From an uncultured Bacteroidota bacterium (GTDB taxonomy: Bacteria > Bacteroidota > Bacteroidia > 2-12-FULL-35-15): a stretch of DNA of 48,904 bases. The stretch is taken from the NCBI GenBank assembly GCA_903911435.1, contig CAIWDF010000098.1, forward strand, positions 1 to 48,904, in the 5' to 3' direction. The translations under genes and the position numbers were made by a program. Below the pieces are notes generated by a model. It saw only the letters and a list, made by a program, of their open reading frames with translations. It was not told the DNA's origin and did no database searches. Below, one piece after another: positions 8,128 through 48,904 of the stretch (position 1 is its first letter; each line of letters opens with the position of its first letter).

Positions 8128-8328
8128 TTATACTTTTCTTACGTTAACGCATTCATGTCCTTTACGACCGTCTTTCAATTCAAACTCTACTTTTGTTGAT
8201 GGGAAAAAAGTGTCATTCTTATCAACTAACTTAGTAGCATGAACGAAGTATTCATTTTTAGATTCGGATTCAATGATGAATCCGAATCCTTTTTCCTTAT
8301 TAAAAAACTTGATTGTTCCTTTTAGCAT
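8128..8328 (-). CDS. Cold-shock-domain protein (CspA family)
   Basis: A 66-residue single cold-shock domain. The RNP1 motif KGFGFI is at residues 13-18 and an RNP2-like YFVHAT at 27-32, both typical single-stranded RNA/DNA binding strands. Length matches bacterial CspA proteins. Such proteins melt RNA secondary structure and can act as transcription antiterminators. It is embedded in the virion operon, two bases upstream of the connector gene, which is unusual. It may help translation or readthrough of the late mRNA, which contains several hairpins, but that is inference. Confidence 0.9.
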   Translation of the reverse strand: MLKGTIKFFNKEKGFGFIIESESKNEYFVHATKLVDKNDTFFPSTKVEFELKDGRKGHECVNVRKV

Positions 8329-9309: not shown

Positions 9310-9342
9310 ATTAAAGTACCGGTGCAAGCCCGGTACTTTAAT
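9310..9342 (-). terminator. Hairpin terminator after the major capsid gene
   Basis: ATTAAAGTACCGG (9310-9322) and CCGGTACTTTAAT (9330-9342) form a perfect 13-bp inverted repeat with a 7-base loop. It starts just past the capsid stop codon in the leftward direction. The 3' arm ends in A/T-rich sequence rather than a long U tract, so it may act as an attenuator or a 3'-end stabiliser for the capsid mRNA. Confidence 0.7.
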
Positions 9343-18185: not shown

Positions 18186-18249
18186 TATTAATTATCGATT
18201 GTTAATAACTTTTTATGGACATTTTGTATTTTGTAAGACAATTTGTATT

Positions 18250-18281
18250 TACCTTTGTCCCGGAAATTATTTACAAAGGTA
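18250..18281. promoter_or_regulatory. Divergent promoter pair and operator-like inverted repeat
   Basis: TACCTTTGT (18250-18258) and ACAAAGGTA (18273-18281) form a perfect 9-base inverted repeat with a 14-base spacer. Each arm is itself a Bacteroidota -7 box (TACCTTTG) on its own strand. TTTG-like -33 candidates lie outside both arms (in 18228-18238 on the plus strand; CAAA-rich 18297-18307 for the minus strand). The two polymerases would face each other and could not bind at once. The rightward transcript feeds the early genes and the leftward one the HTH regulator. Confidence 0.6.
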
Positions 18282-18313
18282 TAATAAATAAATCAACAAA
18301 AACAAAAATAATA

Positions 18314-18544
18314 ATGGAAGGAATAGAAAAATTAACGGAGCAGGAATTAAGAGAGGCAATTTCAAGGCTGAAAAAAAGAAGGACATCGGACTTAAAAAAG
18401 GCTTTGCAAAAAACAAAAGGTAGTTATATATATAAAACGCTTTTAGGGATATCCCGCCAAAATTTTTTTATTAAAAAAGAAAGTGGCCAGTTCTCCGAAA
18501 AGGAAGTTGAGATTTTAAAAAAGCACAACCTTATTAAAGGCTAA
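18314..18544 (+). CDS. Early HTH-like small protein
   Basis: I choose the ATG at 18314 (76 residues, MEGIEKLTEQ). The longer frame from 18215 would read through the promoter region and has an unlikely N-terminus. The protein is basic and helical, with a turn-containing pair of helices (YIYKTLLGISRQNFFIKKESGQFSEKEVEILKKH) reminiscent of HTH DNA-binding proteins such as Cro-like factors. As the first rightward gene facing a leftward regulator, a Cro-type role is plausible but unproven. Confidence 0.6.
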   Translation: MEGIEKLTEQELREAISRLKKRRTSDLKKALQKTKGSYIYKTLLGISRQNFFIKKESGQFSEKEVEILKKHNLIKG

Positions 18545-18557
18545 CCACTATTTCAAA

Positions 18558-18710
18558 ATGAAAAGAAAAAAAGTGAAAGCGGTGCCATCGTCAAGAAAAC
18601 TTACAAAGATTAAGGTATGGTGCGATGAAAAAACAACCGTAACCATTAACAGAATGGAAAGTTTCGCAACATGGAAATTAAAGTACCCAAACGCTAAAAT
18701 TATAAAGTAA
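18558..18710 (+). CDS. Small basic early protein
   Basis: A 50-residue frame from ATG 18558 to TAA 18708-18710. Strongly basic N-terminus (MKRKKVKAVPSSRK), then a short strand-rich region. Its stop overlaps the next start (TAATG), so it belongs to the early operon. It could bind nucleic acid; no family recognised. Confidence 0.5.
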   Translation: MKRKKVKAVPSSRKLTKIKVWCDEKTTVTINRMESFATWKLKYPNAKIIK

Positions 18711-18865
18711 TGAAGTTCAGAATTATTTTCATCAAAAAAACGGAAACCAATTACACCGTTGTAAATGGGTTTTCAACTCGCCAAGCGGCATATAATCACA
18801 TTAGCGATTGCATCAATGATGTGGACTATTATAGAATAGAATTACAAACACCAACAGAAGATTAA
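18710..18865 (+). CDS. Small early protein
   Basis: A 51-residue frame whose ATG overlaps the preceding stop (TAATG). Beta-alpha composition: IIFIKK, then TNYTVVNGFSTRQAAYNHI, then an acidic tail. No family recognised; supported by coupling and its tight fit in the operon. Confidence 0.5.
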   Translation: MKFRIIFIKKTETNYTVVNGFSTRQAAYNHISDCINDVDYYRIELQTPTED

Positions 18866-18867
18866 TC

Positions 18868-19074
18868 ATGAAGGCAATTAAAAACACTATTCGGGATTTT
18901 AGAATCAAACTGCAATTTATAGAGCAGTCTAAATTCTTTTCAAAGTACGGTACCAACATTAACGCAATGGAATCTTACATCGCGAAACGTGAGTTCCAAA
19001 TTAATATGCGTTGGGGAGCCTTGTACATAGGAACTCTTATCATAATTATTCTTGCAGCAATTATATCACATTAA
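18868..19074 (+). CDS. Small single-span membrane protein
   Basis: 68 residues. The N-terminal 45 are basic and soluble, and the C-terminus has one transmembrane helix (about 48-66, WGALYIGTLIIIILAAIIS), so the basic part should face the cytosol. It sits in the early operon, between tiny genes. Early phage membrane proteins often block superinfection or modify host physiology; that is only a possibility here. Confidence 0.6.
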   Translation: MKAIKNTIRDFRIKLQFIEQSKFFSKYGTNINAMESYIAKREFQINMRWGALYIGTLIIIILAAIISH

Positions 19075-19142
19075 TGAACAAGCTAATTAACAAGTGGAGA
19101 CCCATTGACGGAGTTGATGACGGAGCCTACGCAGAATATTAA
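19074..19142 (+). CDS. Tiny ORF, hypothetical
   Basis: A 22-residue frame whose ATG overlaps the upstream stop (TAATG) and which ends three bases before the next ATG. The end is acidic (DGVDDGAYAEY). It is kept only because it exactly bridges two genes; it could be a leader peptide or chance. Confidence 0.25.
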   Translation: MNKLINKWRPIDGVDDGAYAEY

Positions 19143-19145
19143 GTT

Positions 19146-19355
19146 ATGAGAGCAGAACTAAAACAACCAGAGCTACCCATTGAGGTAGAAATTACCAACC
19201 AAAACTACATCGAAAAATTGGCGATGTATGAGGAAATGATTAAGAAGCACGAGGGTGTATTTCTAGTCTTAGCAAAAGACGGTAAATATTACTGCTTTTG
19301 CTCCACACCGCGACAAATTGAAATCAACAAATTAACAATCATAAAGCACAACTAA
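19146..19355 (+). CDS. Small early protein
   Basis: 69 residues, soluble, mixed alpha/beta, with two close Cys (CFC, about 50-52). Not recognised. One base separates its stop from the next start, so it is part of the tight early operon. Confidence 0.55.
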   Translation: MRAELKQPELPIEVEITNQNYIEKLAMYEEMIKKHEGVFLVLAKDGKYYCFCSTPRQIEINKLTIIKHN

Positions 19356-19356
19356 T

Positions 19357-19566
19357 ATGGCAAACATTGCAACATTTCTTAAAAAGATGCAGGATAAATA
19401 TCCACTTTCATTTGAATTGGTTCTTGAGTTCGAAAGCTCGTCCGATAGTATTTACGATGTACTCGAAGACTTCTTCGCCTCACATCAAATTGTAAGGATT
19501 ACAGGCGACACTTCCGAAACATGGGAAGCCGAGTTTGAAATATTAGAACGTCAATTAAAGCAATAA
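19357..19566 (+). CDS. Small acidic early protein
   Basis: 69 residues, acidic, with alternating helix and strand segments (LSFELVLEFESSSDSIYDVLEDFF). Not recognised. Acidic small early phage proteins can act as DNA mimics or inhibitors; the sequence alone does not show this. Confidence 0.55.
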   Translation: MANIATFLKKMQDKYPLSFELVLEFESSSDSIYDVLEDFFASHQIVRITGDTSETWEAEFEILERQLKQ

Positions 19567-19572
19567 TTAATC

Positions 19573-19755
19573 ATGGAACTAACATCAGAATTCAAAAAGA
19601 ACGTAAAGGCAACCGTTGAAAGCAAAGGGTTGACCGAGGATATTAAAATCGACTTCATCCTACAATATGCTAGAGTTGAAATACTACAGCAAATAGTTGA
19701 TACGAAGGCAAAAGAAATAAACGAGGCACGAATGGGCGCGAGTTCAGGGTGCTGA
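19573..19755 (+). CDS. Small helical early protein
   Basis: 60 residues, helical, ending GASSGC. It starts seven bases after the previous stop and ends six bases before a structured RNA element. Not recognised. Confidence 0.5.
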   Translation: MELTSEFKKNVKATVESKGLTEDIKIDFILQYARVEILQQIVDTKAKEINEARMGASSGC

Positions 19756-19761
19756 ATGTAC

Positions 19762-19859
19762 AGCGGTAAGGTCAACTAACAAGTTGGCTTTGAGGACGGG
19801 TGTCGTGAAACCTCCGTTGCTTTTGTTCAGGTTTCACACTAGGGACAGCCGCTTTTTTT
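19762..19859 (+). ncRNA. Candidate three-stem structured RNA with U-tract
   Basis: A closing helix AGCGG (19762-19766) / CCGCT (19849-19853) encloses two hairpins. P2 pairs AAGGTCAAC (19768-19776) with GTTGGCTTT (19783-19791), 9 bp with two G-U and loop TAACAA. P3 pairs GTGAAACCT (19805-19813) with AGGTTTCAC (19829-19837), 9 bp perfect, 15-base loop. The 3' strand of the closing helix runs straight into T7 (19853-19859), like an intrinsic terminator. It lies between the last small early gene and the SbcC-like gene. It could be a stand-alone RNA, a regulated terminator or a leader sensor. It matches no family I know. Confidence 0.6.
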
Positions 19860-19904
19860 AAGAAAACTAACAACAATTAATAATAACAACAAACAACAAA
19901 CAAA

Positions 19905-21839
19905 ATGAAAATTCAATTAACGGGGCTAAGACTCCAAAACTTCAAACAATTAAAAGACTTAAAAGTTCCTTTTGATGATGTTCAAACAACAATCTCCGGT
20001 GATAACGGAACTGGTAAGTCATCTATTTTCGATGCATTCACATGGTTGATGTTTGGCAAAAACAGCGCTGACGAAAAAGAATTCAACATCAAAACGCTGG
20101 ATGAGAATAACAATCCCATTCATAAACTGGAACATAAGGTTTCGGGGATGATTATTTGTGATGGAATGGAAAATCATTTGCGTAAGGAATTACGTGAGAA
20201 ATGGGTAAAAAGAAGAGGGTTTGAGGACTCAGAATTTACAGGCCATGAAACTACCTACTTTGTTAATGATGTTCCGGTAACTCAAACAATTTACAAACAA
20301 AAGATTGATGAAATCATCAACGAAAACCTTTTTAAACTGCTTACTAATCCCGCCTACTTCAATAGTATGAAGTGGACAGATAGAAGAGAAGTTCTAACAA
20401 AAATGGCAGGAGTTATTTCCGATAGCGATATCGCTGGAGATAATGCTGGCCTACAGGCATTAGTTGCACTTCTAAAAAATAAATCTATTAAAGAGCTCCG
20501 CGCTCAACTCTCCGCAGAGAAAAAAAGAATCAAAGATGAACTGGAGAAAATACCAGTATGTATCGAGGAACAAACTAACTCCAAACCGGTGGTGGAAGAT
20601 TATGCCGCTATTTCAAAACAGATTGAAAAAATCGAGTTGGAAATTAAAAGTATCGAAAAGCAAATGGATGACAAACAGGAATCATTCAAAAAGCAAAATG
20701 AGGAAATCACCACCAAGCACAATGAGTTGAACAAACTTAAAAATGATTTGCGTGATTCGGAGTCAGCCGATAAATCATCAAAGAATGAACTACTTCAACA
20801 AATCGAACAAAAGATTAACACCGCCAAAACAAACAAGCAAACGTTTGTCCGTGCCAAGGAGCAGGCCGAAAATAGCATTAGAAGTAATGAAACTCAAATA
20901 AAAGTTTTAGAAACTCAGGTGGTAAACAAGCGCACCGATTTTGAAACTGAAAATGCCAAGGTAATTATTTTTGATGAGGATAAATTTATGTGTCCTTCCT
21001 GCAAAAGACCAATGGAGGCCGATGATATCGAGTCGATGAAAACGGAACTTGCCGCAAATTTTAACAGCAATAAGTTACAAGTTTTAAATACCATCCGTGA
21101 GAAGGGTAAATCATTGAATAATGATATTTCCAACTTGAAAACAGACAATGTTTCCCTTTCTGAAAAAGTGGAGTTGAACAGTTCAAAGGTTCAGGAACTC
21201 GATAGCGAGCTTCAGAACCTCGATAGCGAAAAGCAAAAAGCGATATCGATGGAGGACACAGTTTCAGAAAAAACAAAACAACTGCAGTCGCAAATAGAAG
21301 CATTTTTTATTCCAGTGGTGGCTGCTATTAATAATAGCGAGTTAAGAGAGAAAAGAGCGGTTCTAGTTACCGAGATAGACGGTCTTAAAAAGAAGTTACA
21401 CTCAAAGGAACAAATCGAGGCAGCAGATTTAAGAATAAAGGAGTTATCCGAACAGGAAAAAGTAATGTCTCAGCAGCTTGCCGATTTGGAGAGAAGGGAA
21501 TTCAACATCGATGCATTCAATAAAAAGAAAATTGAAACCATCGAGCAACGTATTAATTCGAAGTTCCAGTTGGTTAAATTCAAAATGTTTGCCCTCCAAA
21601 TTAATGGAGGTGAAGATGAATGTTGCGACTGCTTAGTAAACGGGGTTCCGTATTCCGATGTAAACACTGCGGGTAAGGTAAATGCCGGGCTTGATATTAT
21701 AAATGCACTCAGCGATCACTACGGAGTATCTGTACCGGTATTTATCGACAATAGAGAATCCACTATAAAAATTATTCCTACCAACAGTCAGATCATTAAC
21801 CTGATTGCGGTAAAAGACCAACCATTGACAATTCAATAA
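19905..21839 (+). CDS. SbcC/Rad50-like AAA ATPase
   Basis: 644 residues of SMC-type layout. Walker A GDNGTGKSS is at 32-40. Long coiled coils flank a zinc hook, CPSC at residues 363-366 (FMCPSCKRPM). A C-terminal half-ATPase has the Walker B-like strand VPVFIDNRES. Rad50/SbcC-type ATPases hold DNA ends and work with a nuclease. It is shorter than bacterial SbcC (about 1000 residues), as phage versions are. The next genes encode RecT, a metallo-hydrolase and a DUF1064 nuclease, so it belongs to a phage recombination module. No SbcD partner was seen. Confidence 0.85.
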   Translation: MKIQLTGLRLQNFKQLKDLKVPFDDVQTTISGDNGTGKSSIFDAFTWLMFGKNSADEKEFNIKTLDENNNPIHKLEHKVSGMIICDGMENHLRKELREKWVKRRGFEDSEFTGHETTYFVNDVPVTQTIYKQKIDEIINENLFKLLTNPAYFNSMKWTDRREVLTKMAGVISDSDIAGDNAGLQALVALLKNKSIKELRAQLSAEKKRIKDELEKIPVCIEEQTNSKPVVEDYAAISKQIEKIELEIKSIEKQMDDKQESFKKQNEEITTKHNELNKLKNDLRDSESADKSSKNELLQQIEQKINTAKTNKQTFVRAKEQAENSIRSNETQIKVLETQVVNKRTDFETENAKVIIFDEDKFMCPSCKRPMEADDIESMKTELAANFNSNKLQVLNTIREKGKSLNNDISNLKTDNVSLSEKVELNSSKVQELDSELQNLDSEKQKAISMEDTVSEKTKQLQSQIEAFFIPVVAAINNSELREKRAVLVTEIDGLKKKLHSKEQIEAADLRIKELSEQEKVMSQQLADLERREFNIDAFNKKKIETIEQRINSKFQLVKFKMFALQINGGEDECCDCLVNGVPYSDVNTAGKVNAGLDIINALSDHYGVSVPVFIDNRESTIKIIPTNSQIINLIAVKDQPLTIQ

Positions 21840-21866: not shown

Positions 21867-22817
21867 ATGACAACAGTAAATTCAAATGGTCCGGAGGTTT
21901 CAAAAGCCGAGGACAAAAAAGAGAAGCCGGTAACCACTGCAGTTGAAAAAACGATAAGTGATAGCGTATTAGCTCGGGTTGACCAGTTTCAAAAAGCTAA
22001 GGCAATTAATCTTCCCGAAAACTACAGCGCTGCCAATGCCTTAAAATTTGCTTACCTAATGATTTCGGAGGCAAAGGACAGATCAGGAAATGGCGTACTA
22101 CAAACATGCTCTCAGGCCAGTATAGCAAATGCGTTACTTGAAATGGTTATTCAGGGATTAAACCCAATGAAAAAACAATGCTACTTCGTTGCAATGGGTA
22201 GTAAGTTGACCATGATGAGAAGTTATAACGGATCTATTGCCGTTGCAAAAAGAGTGGCCGGAATTAAATCTATAAAAGGAAACTTGATTTATAAAAATGA
22301 TGTTTTCGAATATGTAATTAACAAGGATGGAAGTAAAACCCTTGTTAAACACGAGCAGGACTTCAAACAAATTGATGATTCTGAAATCATAGGAGCTTAT
22401 GCCATTGCAGTTGATAAGGATGGCAACCTAGAGCTCGAGGTTATGAATAACCAACAGATCATGAAGTCGTGGAAAATGGGAGCCGCTGGCGGAGTATCAA
22501 AAGCACATACTGAGTTCAAAGGTGAAATGAGTATGAAGACCGTTGAGAGCAGATTATGTAAGCGTATCATTAATGTCTCAGATGATGCCTCCTTATTTAC
22601 CGAGGAAAAGGAATTTACTGACGCGGAGGCTCAAAACGCAGTTGCCGTTGAAATTAAGCAGGAGGCAAATATCGAGTCAATATCCTTCGAGGAGTCGAAA
22701 GAGGAGTTAAAGGAAGAGGTGAAACCGTTAGTAAATATGGAAGAAACTCCAAAGGTAAACGGAGCGGATTCAAACGGAGGTCAAACAAATTTAGAATTAG
22801 AGAAGCCTGATTTCTAA
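21867..22817 (+). CDS. recT: RecT-like single-strand annealing recombinase
   Basis: 316 residues. The core (about 40-235) shows RecT features: SIANALLEMVIQGLNPMKKQCYFV, LTMMRSYNGSIAVAKR, and the C-terminal EFKGEMSMKTVESRLCKRI. A low-complexity acidic tail (about 250-316) resembles SSB-type protein-binding tails. RecT anneals complementary single strands during phage recombination and replication. An A-rich leader precedes the ATG with no Shine-Dalgarno, as elsewhere here. Confidence 0.9.
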   Translation: MTTVNSNGPEVSKAEDKKEKPVTTAVEKTISDSVLARVDQFQKAKAINLPENYSAANALKFAYLMISEAKDRSGNGVLQTCSQASIANALLEMVIQGLNPMKKQCYFVAMGSKLTMMRSYNGSIAVAKRVAGIKSIKGNLIYKNDVFEYVINKDGSKTLVKHEQDFKQIDDSEIIGAYAIAVDKDGNLELEVMNNQQIMKSWKMGAAGGVSKAHTEFKGEMSMKTVESRLCKRIINVSDDASLFTEEKEFTDAEAQNAVAVEIKQEANIESISFEESKEELKEEVKPLVNMEETPKVNGADSNGGQTNLELEKPDF

Positions 22818-22818
22818 T

Positions 22819-23556
22819 ATGAAACTTACCTGCATCAATACTGGCTCTGTTGGAAACTGTTATCTTTTGGATAGCGGCACCGAGGTTCTTATTTTAGAAC
22901 TCGGTGTCAACTTCAAAGATATAAAGGTTGCGCTTAATTTCGATATCTCTCGCGTTTGCGGAGCTATTGTAACTCACGAGCATTTAGACCACAGCAAGGC
23001 CATTAATGATGCGGCAAAAGCGGGAATCGATATTTACTCATCGCCCGGTACCATCAACGCAATAAATATTTCATCTCATCGACTTCATCCAGTTTTTGCA
23101 ATGAAAGAATTTATCCTTGGCGAATTTAAAATAAAACCGTTTGATGTTCGTCATGACTGTGCGGAGCCTTTCGGGTACCTGATCAATCATCCTCAGTGTG
23201 GGAATGTGCTGTTTATCACCGATAGTTTTTATTGCAGGTACACGTTTCCGAATCTAAATAACATTATCGTGGAGGCGAATTACTGTGAGGACATTATGGC
23301 GGAGAAATTCTTTTCCGGTGACCTGAATAAAATCATTCGCGACCGTGTAATGAAATCACACATGAGTTTAAAGACATGCAAGGAGCTTCTTATGGCAAAT
23401 GATTTAAAGGCGGTGAATAATATCGTACTTATCCATTTGTCGGATGGAAATTCAGACGAGCGAAAGTTTAAAAAGCAGGTCCAGGATCTAACCGGGAAAA
23501 ATGTTCACGTTGCGTCAAAAAATTTATCAATCGATTTATCAAAAATACCTTTTTAA
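22819..23556 (+). CDS. Metallo-beta-lactamase-fold hydrolase
   Basis: 245 residues with the hallmark THEHLDH (52-58), a following Asp in FITDSFY, and late His residues (IHLSDGN). This is the two-metal MBL fold of YycJ/RNase Z-type hydrolases. It starts one base after the recT stop and ends before a nuclease gene. In phages with RecT it probably supplies an exonuclease or phosphodiesterase activity, though substrate cannot be read from the sequence. Confidence 0.85.
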   Translation: MKLTCINTGSVGNCYLLDSGTEVLILELGVNFKDIKVALNFDISRVCGAIVTHEHLDHSKAINDAAKAGIDIYSSPGTINAINISSHRLHPVFAMKEFILGEFKIKPFDVRHDCAEPFGYLINHPQCGNVLFITDSFYCRYTFPNLNNIIVEANYCEDIMAEKFFSGDLNKIIRDRVMKSHMSLKTCKELLMANDLKAVNNIVLIHLSDGNSDERKFKKQVQDLTGKNVHVASKNLSIDLSKIPF

Positions 23557-35435: not shown

Positions 35436-36272
35436 ATGGAAATTCCAAACAATGTACTAAGACTTAGGAAATACATGGAGTTTAGAAAATACTCGCAAAA
35501 TAGTATTGAGAACTATTGTAGTAGCCTGAATAAATTTCTTTCTTTTTTCGATGGTAAATATACCGAACCAATAAAAATACCTAGTTCGGCTATAATCGAA
35601 TATCTGAGTAGATATAAGGAACCTAATTCGCTTTCGGGTGCGTTATCATCTATAAAAATGTTTTACGAAAAATGTTTGAATCAGGTTTGTAAGTTTGATA
35701 AAATTGAAAGACCAAAAAAATCGAAAAAACTTCCGATTGTTTTAAGCCAAGATGAAGTTGAAAGGATGTTCAAAGTGTGCGAAAATTTAAAGCACAAAGT
35801 AATTTTAGCTATTCTATACAGTTGTGGATTAAGGGTAAGCGAATTGATAAATCTTAAGTGGAAAGATATTGATAGATCGCGAATGATAATAAATATTGTT
35901 CAGGCCAAAGGAAATAAAGATAGGCAAGTAATGCTTTCGCCTGAGCTTATTCCATTGCTCGAAAAGTATTATCATCAATATCATTCGAAAATATATGTAT
36001 TGAATGGACAAAACGATTCATTTCAATACTCAGATAGAAGTGTGTGCGAGGTGATGAAACAGTTGGCTAAAAAGGCTGGTATAAGGAAAAGAGTTTATAC
36101 TCACCTAATCAGGCATTGTTCATTTACTCACATGGTAGAGCAGGGAACTGATATTAACCTTATACAACGATTGGCAGGGCATAGTAATGTAAAAACAACG
36201 GCCATCTACATGCATATTTCGGACAGCCTTATCAGCAAAATAAGGAGTCCATTGAGTAGTATAAAAATGTAA
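35436..36272 (+). CDS. Tyrosine recombinase (integrase, XerC/D-like)
   Basis: 278 residues. The N-terminal SAM-like domain (about 1-90) binds core DNA. The catalytic domain shows R133 (GLRVSE), K158 (AKGNKDR), H223/R226 (HLIRH), H249 (GHSNVKTTAIYMH) and nucleophile Y258. All six catalytic positions are present. It probably catalyses integration/excision or resolution of the phage DNA. A second, serine-type integrase lies only 500 bases downstream, so which one integrates the prophage is unclear. Confidence 0.92.
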   Translation: MEIPNNVLRLRKYMEFRKYSQNSIENYCSSLNKFLSFFDGKYTEPIKIPSSAIIEYLSRYKEPNSLSGALSSIKMFYEKCLNQVCKFDKIERPKKSKKLPIVLSQDEVERMFKVCENLKHKVILAILYSCGLRVSELINLKWKDIDRSRMIINIVQAKGNKDRQVMLSPELIPLLEKYYHQYHSKIYVLNGQNDSFQYSDRSVCEVMKQLAKKAGIRKRVYTHLIRHCSFTHMVEQGTDINLIQRLAGHSNVKTTAIYMHISDSLISKIRSPLSSIKM

Positions 36273-36609: not shown

Positions 36610-36765
36610 ATGAAGATAAATTTATCAAAAAAGGATGTTGCCGTTATAATTGACGCTTTAACTTTTTTAGGAGTTCAAACATCCGACAATGATGATCAGA
36701 ATAAAATTGCCAAAATTGAAAACAAATTATTTGATTTAATAAAGCCTAAAAAGCCAATTAAATGA
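36610..36765 (+). CDS. Small protein coupled to the serine recombinase
   Basis: 51 residues from ATG 36610; its TGA overlaps the serine recombinase ATG (AATGA). Acidic middle (SDNDDQNK) and helical. Being directly coupled to the recombinase it could be a directionality factor, but this is only positional. Confidence 0.5.
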   Translation: MKINLSKKDVAVIIDALTFLGVQTSDNDDQNKIAKIENKLFDLIKPKKPIK

Positions 36766-38357
36766 AGCACGCCACAGCATATTCTTACGAACGTATCTCC
36801 ACTGAGGAACAAAGTAATTTTTCTTTGCGCTTCCAGAATGAGACTATTCAGGAATATGCGGATAAAAATAACATTACTATTATCGAATCATTCCGAGACG
36901 ATGGGTATAGTGCAAAGGATTTCAATCGTCCCGCATGGAAACGCCTCGAGATTGCATTAAAAAAGCATAAGGTAGATTATCTTATCGTGGCCAAATACGA
37001 CCGTCTTATTCGCAATATGCTGGAGGGATTGGTATTCATTGACAAACTCGAAAACAAACTCGGAGTAACTTTAATTTCCGTTCGTGAAAATTACGGTGTA
37101 AGTCCGTTTGACCCCTATTTCAGAAAGCAACGAAACGATATGCTTAACAGTGCCGAACACGAACGGGGATTAATATCTTGGAGGTCTCGCGGAGGTGTAC
37201 ACAAAGGCAAGAAGGAGGGCTACTACCTTCATAAAGCACCGTTCGGATATTATAATTTTAAGGATGATAAAAAGATGCCACAGATAGGCATTGACATTGA
37301 AAGGAGAGAAGTAATCAAAAACATATTTGATGATTTCCTTTCGGGATATTCATTTACCGCCATTCGAAAGCGTGCCGAAGAAAAAGGGTTCACTGGCAAG
37401 CATAGAGAAGTTATTAAAAGAACACTTCTCAATCCAGTCTATGGTGGGTTAATTAAAGTTCCTGCATTCGAATCGCAACCGGAGCAAATTGTAAAAGGAT
37501 TGCACGAAGGTATTGTTAGCGAAGAAACATACTGGAAAGCATACTACCAATTACAGGACCAACTTAAGCCGCAAGGACAAAGGATATTTGATGAACACTT
37601 GCCACTGAGAGGTTTTCTTATGTGCGATAAATGCGGGGCGATTCACACTGGAGCGCGGGCAAAAGGTCGTTCGAAATATTACTACTACTATTGGTGCAAC
37701 AGTTGTAAGGGCAAAACATATAATGCTGAAAAGGTCGACACTGATATTTCCTATTTATTAAACGGACTTTCTCTATCCCCTGAGTTAATCGAGGTCATAA
37801 GAATTGAAACCGAAGTACAAGTGGCCGCCTCAATGGATGAAAGGAAGGTTCAACTTAATAAAGAAGTTCGCGAGTACTCCGAATTAAAAACAAAGCTCGA
37901 TAAGTTAGAGAAAAAATATATTGAGGAGGACCTGGATAAGGAAACCTATAAAAAATGGCACTCGATATATACCGAGGAACTCAACAAAAAGGGGGTGTTA
38001 TTATCAGATTTGAAACGAACCGAATCAGAATCGGCCATGCTTATTAGTACCATCGATTATTTTACCGACCTCAATTACCTTTATAAAAAAGCAGCTGTTG
38101 AGGAAAAGCAACAGTTCCTGAAGGGTGTATTCCCTGCTAGTTTAATCACCTTGGAGAAAGGTTATCGAACCGCTTTTATTACTTCCATGTTTGCTCCGAA
38201 TGCTAATAAATTAGAGGGGTTGATACAAATAAAAAGTGGGGACAATGCCACTACTTTTAGCAATATCCCCACTTTGGGTGGCTCATGGAACCCAGTTCAA
38301 ACCAATTTAACTTCATTCCTGAAGTTGGTTGAGCGCATCATTAATAGAGCAGCGTAA
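36762..38357 (+). CDS. Large serine recombinase
   Basis: 531 residues. The resolvase domain starts YSYERISTEEQS with catalytic Ser13, and the DGYSAKDFNRPAWKRL and VAKYDRLIRN segments follow. A recombinase domain (about 160-265) precedes a zinc ribbon C288/C291/C312/C315 (CDKC...CNSC) and a coiled coil (about 345-440), the full layout of large serine integrases. It carries out site-specific integration/excision between attP and attB. Its end overlaps a cluster of CGTAA repeats. Confidence 0.93.
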   Translation: MKHATAYSYERISTEEQSNFSLRFQNETIQEYADKNNITIIESFRDDGYSAKDFNRPAWKRLEIALKKHKVDYLIVAKYDRLIRNMLEGLVFIDKLENKLGVTLISVRENYGVSPFDPYFRKQRNDMLNSAEHERGLISWRSRGGVHKGKKEGYYLHKAPFGYYNFKDDKKMPQIGIDIERREVIKNIFDDFLSGYSFTAIRKRAEEKGFTGKHREVIKRTLLNPVYGGLIKVPAFESQPEQIVKGLHEGIVSEETYWKAYYQLQDQLKPQGQRIFDEHLPLRGFLMCDKCGAIHTGARAKGRSKYYYYYWCNSCKGKTYNAEKVDTDISYLLNGLSLSPELIEVIRIETEVQVAASMDERKVQLNKEVREYSELKTKLDKLEKKYIEEDLDKETYKKWHSIYTEELNKKGVLLSDLKRTESESAMLISTIDYFTDLNYLYKKAAVEEKQQFLKGVFPASLITLEKGYRTAFITSMFAPNANKLEGLIQIKSGDNATTFSNIPTLGGSWNPVQTNLTSFLKLVERIINRAA

Positions 38358-41245: not shown

Positions 41246-41300
41246 TTATTCTATTTTTTACTACTTTTGCCTCGTCTCACAATAATTTATTGCATAAAAA

Positions 41301-41356
41301 AAGAACAACACACGTTCAGAAAGACATTGTCCTTCAGGTGAACGTGTGTTGTTCTT
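41301..41356 (-). terminator. Strong intrinsic terminator at the end of the late operon
   Basis: Bases 41301-41318 and 41339-41356 are a perfect 18-base inverted repeat; the loop can extend the stem by GAAAGAC/GTCCTTC with one mismatch. In the leftward direction the stem ends in T7. It lies between the DUF6527-like gene (stop 41442) and the island (41245). The gap 41246-41441 also holds a C10 run at 41424-41433, a small ACAAAGG/CCTTTGT hairpin near 41362-41384, and a plus-strand TACTTTTG at 41262-41269 of uncertain meaning. Confidence 0.85.
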
Positions 41357-41441
41357 AATTACAAAGGCGTGAGACCCTTTGTGAACTGGAGGACGCCTTA
41401 TGGCATCCCCTTTAATGTATTTACCCCCCCCCCTCCCCATA

Positions 41442-48749: not shown

Positions 48750-48904
48750 CTGGTAGGGAATTTATTAGTTGTAAGTTATTCGTGTAAATTTCATTTCTTC
48801 TTATGTTCATCTCGACATATCCATCCTCGATGTACCAAGTCAAATTATCAATTTTGCATTCTTGACCGTCCGAATCATCAATGGTATTTTCGTTCTTTAC
48901 CTTA
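48739..48904 (-). CDS. 3' end of the distal tail gene (continues from base 1)
   Basis: The last 141 bases here repeat bases 1-141. Read leftward in the same frame as the gene at 1-2429, they continue past the join with eight codons (INSLPDGN) and TAA at 48739-48741. It is not a separate gene. Confidence 0.9.
   Translation of the reverse strand, partial: KVKNENTIDDSDGQECKIDNLTWYIEDGYVEMNIRRNEIYTNNLQLINSLPDGN
48764..48904. repeat. Terminal direct repeat, right copy
   Basis: Exact second copy of bases 1-141, marking the circular join. See the left copy. Confidence 0.95.

Follow-up and report, generated by a model that had tools for sequence, protein, structure and literature searches.

The window analyzed here, 48,904 bases in length, is a single contig (C98) of a Bacteroidetes genome assembly of 312 contigs. 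Both of its ends carry an exact direct repeat of 141 bases (1-141 and 48764-48904), so the phage genome assembled here is probably complete and circular. It bears a set of structural genes, plus one tyrosine recombinase and one serine recombinase, and the phage is a temperate Bacteroidetes phage, as taken in the interpretation given below. The tyrosine recombinase and the large serine recombinase, which were named by eye from their translations, lie near each other at 35436-36272 and 36762-38357. Perfect inverted repeats of 13 bp (9310-9342) and 12 bp (8261-8288) are present on the - strand in intergenic positions among the structural genes. A long C-rich run, acccccccccctcccc, lies between genes at 41424-41438 and is possibly phase-variable or a weak spot of the assembly.

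The primary sigma factor of Bacteroidetes uses TAnnTTTG at -7 and a weaker TTTG at -33 (PMC6847099; PMC7366714). Only six exact TTG/TAnnTTTG matches were found in the whole contig, both strands included. One of them, on the + strand, ends 57 bases upstream of 18314, where the first early start codon lies; judging from the consensus, it probably starts the rightward early transcript, with a first base at ~18263. No further exact match was detected by the consensus scan between 18257 and 19905; between 19055 and 19905 there was none even when one mismatch was allowed, and the nearest relaxed match upstream was at 19021. The promoter at 18224-18257 faces another on the - strand (18305-18274), and the -7 boxes TACCTTTG of the two constitute an inverted repeat, ACCTTTGT...ACAAAGGTA. 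This face-to-face pair (18224-18305) is probably the lysogeny/early switch together with its operator.

The small early ORFs are followed by a gap of 149 bases (19756-19904), after which a recombination operon begins with an SbcC-like gene and a RecT-like gene (Table 1). The initial annotation had described this gap as holding a three-stem structured RNA with a terminator-like end. Both the gap and the named parts, consisting of two hairpins, an AGCGG/CCGCT closing helix and a T7 run, were all found where that annotation had placed them. On the + strand, the element lies inside no ORF of at least 40 aa in the ORF listing, and its G+C content is 0.49 versus ~0.35 locally. The 45 bases from T7 to the ATG at 19905 form an A-rich leader containing no consensus promoter; A-rich leaders of this kind have been described for SD-less initiation in Bacteroidetes.

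Table 1. Features of the early region and of the element
Feature	Position	Strand	Remarks
Putative promoter, TTG - N23 - TACCTTTG	18224..18257	+	exact TTG/TAnnTTTG match
Small early ORFs	18314-19755	+	upstream of the element
Last small early ORF, 60 aa	19573..19755	+	weak match to phrog_7716 (function unknown)
Optional upstream hairpin GCUG/CAGC	19748..19766	+	predicted with RNA energies; absent from some prefix folds
Whole element	19762..19859	+	present at exactly the annotated coordinates
Closing helix, 5 bp	AGCGG 19762-19766 with CCGCT 19849-19853	+	
Hairpin 1	19768..19791	+	10 bp, AACA tetraloop, -9.3 kcal/mol
Putative terminator hairpin with U7	19792..19859	+	-23.0 kcal/mol; MFE = centroid; z -2.4; rank 2/154
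Apical stem, 9 bp, 15-nt loop	GTGAAACCT 19805-19813 with AGGTTTCAC 19829-19837	+	
3' terminator arm GACAGCCGCTTTTTT	19844..19858	+	common to host-genus terminators
T7 U tract	19853-19859	+	
A-rich, SD-less translation leader of the SbcC-like gene	19865..19904	+	
SbcC-like ATPase	19905..21839	+	first gene of the recombination operon
RecT-like annealing protein	21867..22817	+	
Metallo-beta-lactamase-fold hydrolase/nuclease	22819..23556	+	

Although both hairpins had been annotated as 9 bp long, this length applies only to the second; the arms of the first, AAGGTCAACT (19768-19777) and AGTTGGCTTT (19782-19791), form 10 bp, two of which are G-U. The best predicted structure is a tandem arrangement, in which the free 10-bp hairpin is followed by a long hairpin (19792-19855) that leads into the U tract. 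In the long hairpin, GAGG, CGG and UGUC are paired with GACA, CCG and CUUU, and a 9-bp stem-loop (19805-19837) caps the structure; its lower stem has mismatches and its apical loop is large. In prefix folds of the growing transcript, which are equilibrium folds of successive 3' ends and not a kinetic simulation, the fold settled into the long hairpin once 19852-19858 had been made. A pseudoknot candidate, GACGG/CCGUU (19795-19799 with 19814-19818), was also spotted by eye.

Both arms of the closing helix that had been annotated as running into T7 are present, but the helix is missing from the MFE structure. The three-way junction reached -32.7 kcal/mol versus -33.5 kcal/mol for the best fold, and the AGCGG/CCGCT pairs had a probability of ~0.2. 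In base-pair prediction, the CCGCT arm preferred 19792-19804 over 19762-19766 as its partner; in some longer frames, the 5' arm of the closing helix was taken by the upstream GCUG/CAGC hairpin. Both rival partners of the 3' arm yield a hairpin adjoining the U tract, indicating that their exchange is no terminator/antiterminator switch. The proposal that a closing helix adjoining the U tract is the hallmark of a switch therefore fails here.

To place the hairpin among comparable sites, the best hairpin ending at each T6+ run was computed for both strands of the contig (n = 154 runs). The hairpin of the element ranked second, after an 18-bp terminator at 41300-41357. The latter site, on the - strand, has a strong 18-bp inverted repeat, a small hairpin inside it and T7; lying downstream of genes on the - strand, it is clearly an intrinsic terminator. 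As in intrinsic terminators, the G+C-rich hairpin of the element ends no more than 2-3 nt ahead of the U tract, the tract has a length of about 6-8 (T7 here), and the whole lies between coding regions on the correct strand.

The last 15 bases, GACAGCCGCTTTTTT, fit an arm pattern of the host genus, GACAGCCNCTTTTTT, written GACAGCC[T]CTTTTTT. This pattern had 23 matches in 36 genus genomes, and the reversed-pattern control had 0. About 8 of 11 inspected matching sites in other genus genomes folded into terminator hairpins outside long ORFs, a count that needs care: the 11 sites are distinct and matching or near-matching (L199), with L186, L200 and L220 being one site and the arms of L216 two. 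Those folding as terminators outside long ORFs were L182, L186, L199, L211, L213 and both L216 arms, and those that did not were L184, L214 and L215; the own-genome pair at C178 was not among the sequences inspected. A longer arm with a GGG prefix had four matches, one of which (L184) was no terminator, and was too rare alone, so the shorter pattern was counted. The shared arm mostly, but not always, marks a terminator. When a single-sequence covariance model was used to search the genus, three of the five next-best matches were intergenic host terminators (L182, L199 and L200). Bidirectional host terminators of the form AAAAAGAGGCTGTC...GACAGCCTCTTTTTT recur in the genus (G000:C178:12512-12551 and L216).

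The terminator-like end of the element is thus supported both by the rank of its hairpin and by the 3' arm that it has in common with intrinsic terminators of the host genus; the hairpins, the U tract, the strength in comparison with the other T runs and the arm in common are all computed features. Like the host-genus terminators AAAAAGAGGCTGTC...GACAGCCTCTTTTTT, the element has a hairpin followed by a U tract, lies between genes and carries the identical 3' arm. By contrast, the host terminators are perfect short hairpins and are often bidirectional, whereas in the element the 5' arm differs and is imperfect, the apical 9-bp stem-loop is large, a 10-bp hairpin comes first, and activity would be restricted to one strand, the other strand having no U tract.

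We then considered relatives of the element. No Rfam family matched at its gathering threshold in the window; the sole match at E up to 10, CrcZ, falls on the A-rich leader and is spurious. DNA similarity to 50,697 phage records gave three short matches with E ~0.5, which were rejected. In viral contigs, the exact 9-bp arm pattern hit seven loci with unrelated hairpins, the first-hairpin pattern had no match, and the linker pattern had two matches in unrelated surroundings without such a fold. A DNA search of 36 genus and 395 class genomes returned only short partial matches to unrelated, mostly coding, sequence, and the single-sequence covariance model, run on AAA-gene loci and genomes, recovered only host terminators or chance-looking matches.

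In the relative whose SbcC-like protein is closest (70% identity; L010/L100, CAIRRW010000161.1), the leader is kept, 20 of the 22 bases of ACTAACAACAATTAATAATAAC being the same, and the element is absent upstream of the SbcC-like gene. Among 158 SbcC-like loci, 17 had upstream gaps of at least 80 nt, none of them with a T5 run; a RecT-based scan yielded ten distant relatives, with the element in none. As far as can be seen, the element is specific to the phage studied. The suggestions that it is a new phage RNA or a sensor or switch are without support, as these searches gave no homologue, no Rfam match and no ligand-domain-like conservation.

We consider it likely, with a probability of roughly 0.7, that the element acts on the rightward early transcript as an intrinsic (Rho-independent) terminator, one that in vivo probably stops transcription only in part and hence is an attenuator. 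Most likely it is an ordinary terminator, perhaps leaky, that separates the first small genes from those for recombination. RNA polymerase would start at the early promoter at ~18224 and transcribe the small early ORFs; hairpin 1 (19768-19791) would form in the nascent RNA, the long hairpin (19792-19855) would follow, and the polymerase would stop in the U tract (19853-19859), ~1.6 kb into the early transcript. Readthrough, by partial termination or by means of a phage or host antiterminator, would lead into the A-rich leader, the SbcC-like and RecT genes and the remaining genes of the replication operon. Such a terminator or attenuator would limit or delay the recombination operon.

With a promoter at 18224 and no exact one until 19905, the early transcript would extend across the element and reach the recombination operon, making the annotated control of the downstream operon plausible from position. 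Full termination would leave that operon without a visible promoter, and we therefore infer partial termination or antitermination; termination itself, the early promoter as its driver and the limiting or delaying role are inferred likewise. Several points weigh against a terminator. A full stop would silence the operon, since only 45 nt without a consensus promoter remain to the start codon; the closest relative works without the element, for which no homologue or conservation was found; and the lower stem is mismatched, the apical loop large and the three-way junction fold within 1 kcal/mol.

In phage lambda, the terminator tR1 separates the first early genes from the recombination/replication genes on a co-directional transcript. 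The element resembles tR1 in position and differs in that no nut-like site or antiterminator gene was identified in the phage studied.

A stand-alone or 3'-processed sRNA of ~100 nt, which would have a promoter of its own or be excised from the early mRNA and would regulate phage or host transcripts by pairing with them, is unlikely. Tandem hairpins with a terminal terminator are also seen in the sRNAs GibS, which is intergenic, and BTnc069 of Bacteroides thetaiotaomicron, an organism in which intra-operonic sRNAs ending at terminators are known as well (PMC7366714), and the G+C content of the element stands out from its surroundings. Unlike GibS and BTnc069, however, the element has no single-stranded conserved seed and no homologue among the sequences searched; it is almost entirely helix. 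The consensus scan detected no two-box Bacteroidetes-type promoter just upstream, where an independent sRNA would be expected to have its own, the nearest relaxed match being that at 19021. A riboswitch, a new RNA class and a stand-alone sRNA are not supported.

It is quite improbable that the element is a regulated switch (a riboswitch, a protein-binding leader or a translation-coupled attenuator) in which CCGCT swaps between 19762-19766 and 19792-19804. Two mutually exclusive folds do lie less than 1 kcal/mol apart, and a TGA-ATG junction starts a 7-codon ORF (ATG TAC AGC GGT AAG GTC AAC TAA, 19756-19779) that covers the first hairpin and might couple translation to attenuation. But swapping between folds that both adjoin the U tract would not turn termination off, the mini-ORF has no run of regulatory codons, no Rfam class was recovered at any relaxed score, and the arrangement is not kept in the relative CAIRRW010000161.1. 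We give similarly little credence to a phage-specific regulatory RNA, whose tandem hairpins, by sensing a factor (the ribosome, a phage protein or a metabolite), would determine how much readthrough reaches the recombination operon.

The initial annotation had called such a fold unlikely by chance, and had proposed to compare its folding energy with that of shuffled sequences. Energy alone proved only moderately unusual, with z -2.78 for 19762-19859 (98 nt; 2 of 200 shuffles equally good) and z -1.9 in a 131-nt frame, and a scan of both strands in 100-nt frames put the element among the five sites of lowest energy. The claim fared better for the combination of parts, defined as a pair of stems, each 9 bp or longer and within 20 nt of each other, a T run of six or more within the next 30 nt, and a closing helix of 5 bp or longer that abuts this run. 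The full combination had a single occurrence on the + strand of the contig and none in 200 dinucleotide-shuffled versions of it, counts that flatter the element because the criteria were fixed after it was seen; omitting the closing helix, it was present in 3 of 200 shuffles. A functionless chance fold in a G+C-richer gap would agree with z values of only -1.9 to -2.8 and with the absence of conservation in our searches, but is very improbable given the shuffle counts for the combination, the T7 adjoining a G-C-rich stem end and the 15-mer in common with host terminators. The element is real and non-random.

Least probable of all is a put- or canT-like RNA that would act on the polymerase for processive antitermination through later terminators: the element shares with HK022 put (PMC9378689) two adjacent stem-loops and a position near the start of a long phage operon, and Tn916 canT (PMC11658703) shows that such structured nascent cis RNAs also occur early in operons of other mobile elements, but put and canT suppress termination, whereas the U tract at the end of the element is the opposite of what an antiterminator would show and gives it the look of a terminator, and the contig has only two intergenic terminators of note, the other one on the opposite strand.

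Taken as a terminator or attenuator, the element would represent expected biology for a phage early region. The control of early transcription in Bacteroidetes phages is poorly mapped, and the element and the face-to-face promoters at 18224/18305 together provide a concrete layout of an early operon. Where a structured RNA candidate ends in U7, comparison with the terminator arms of the host should come first.
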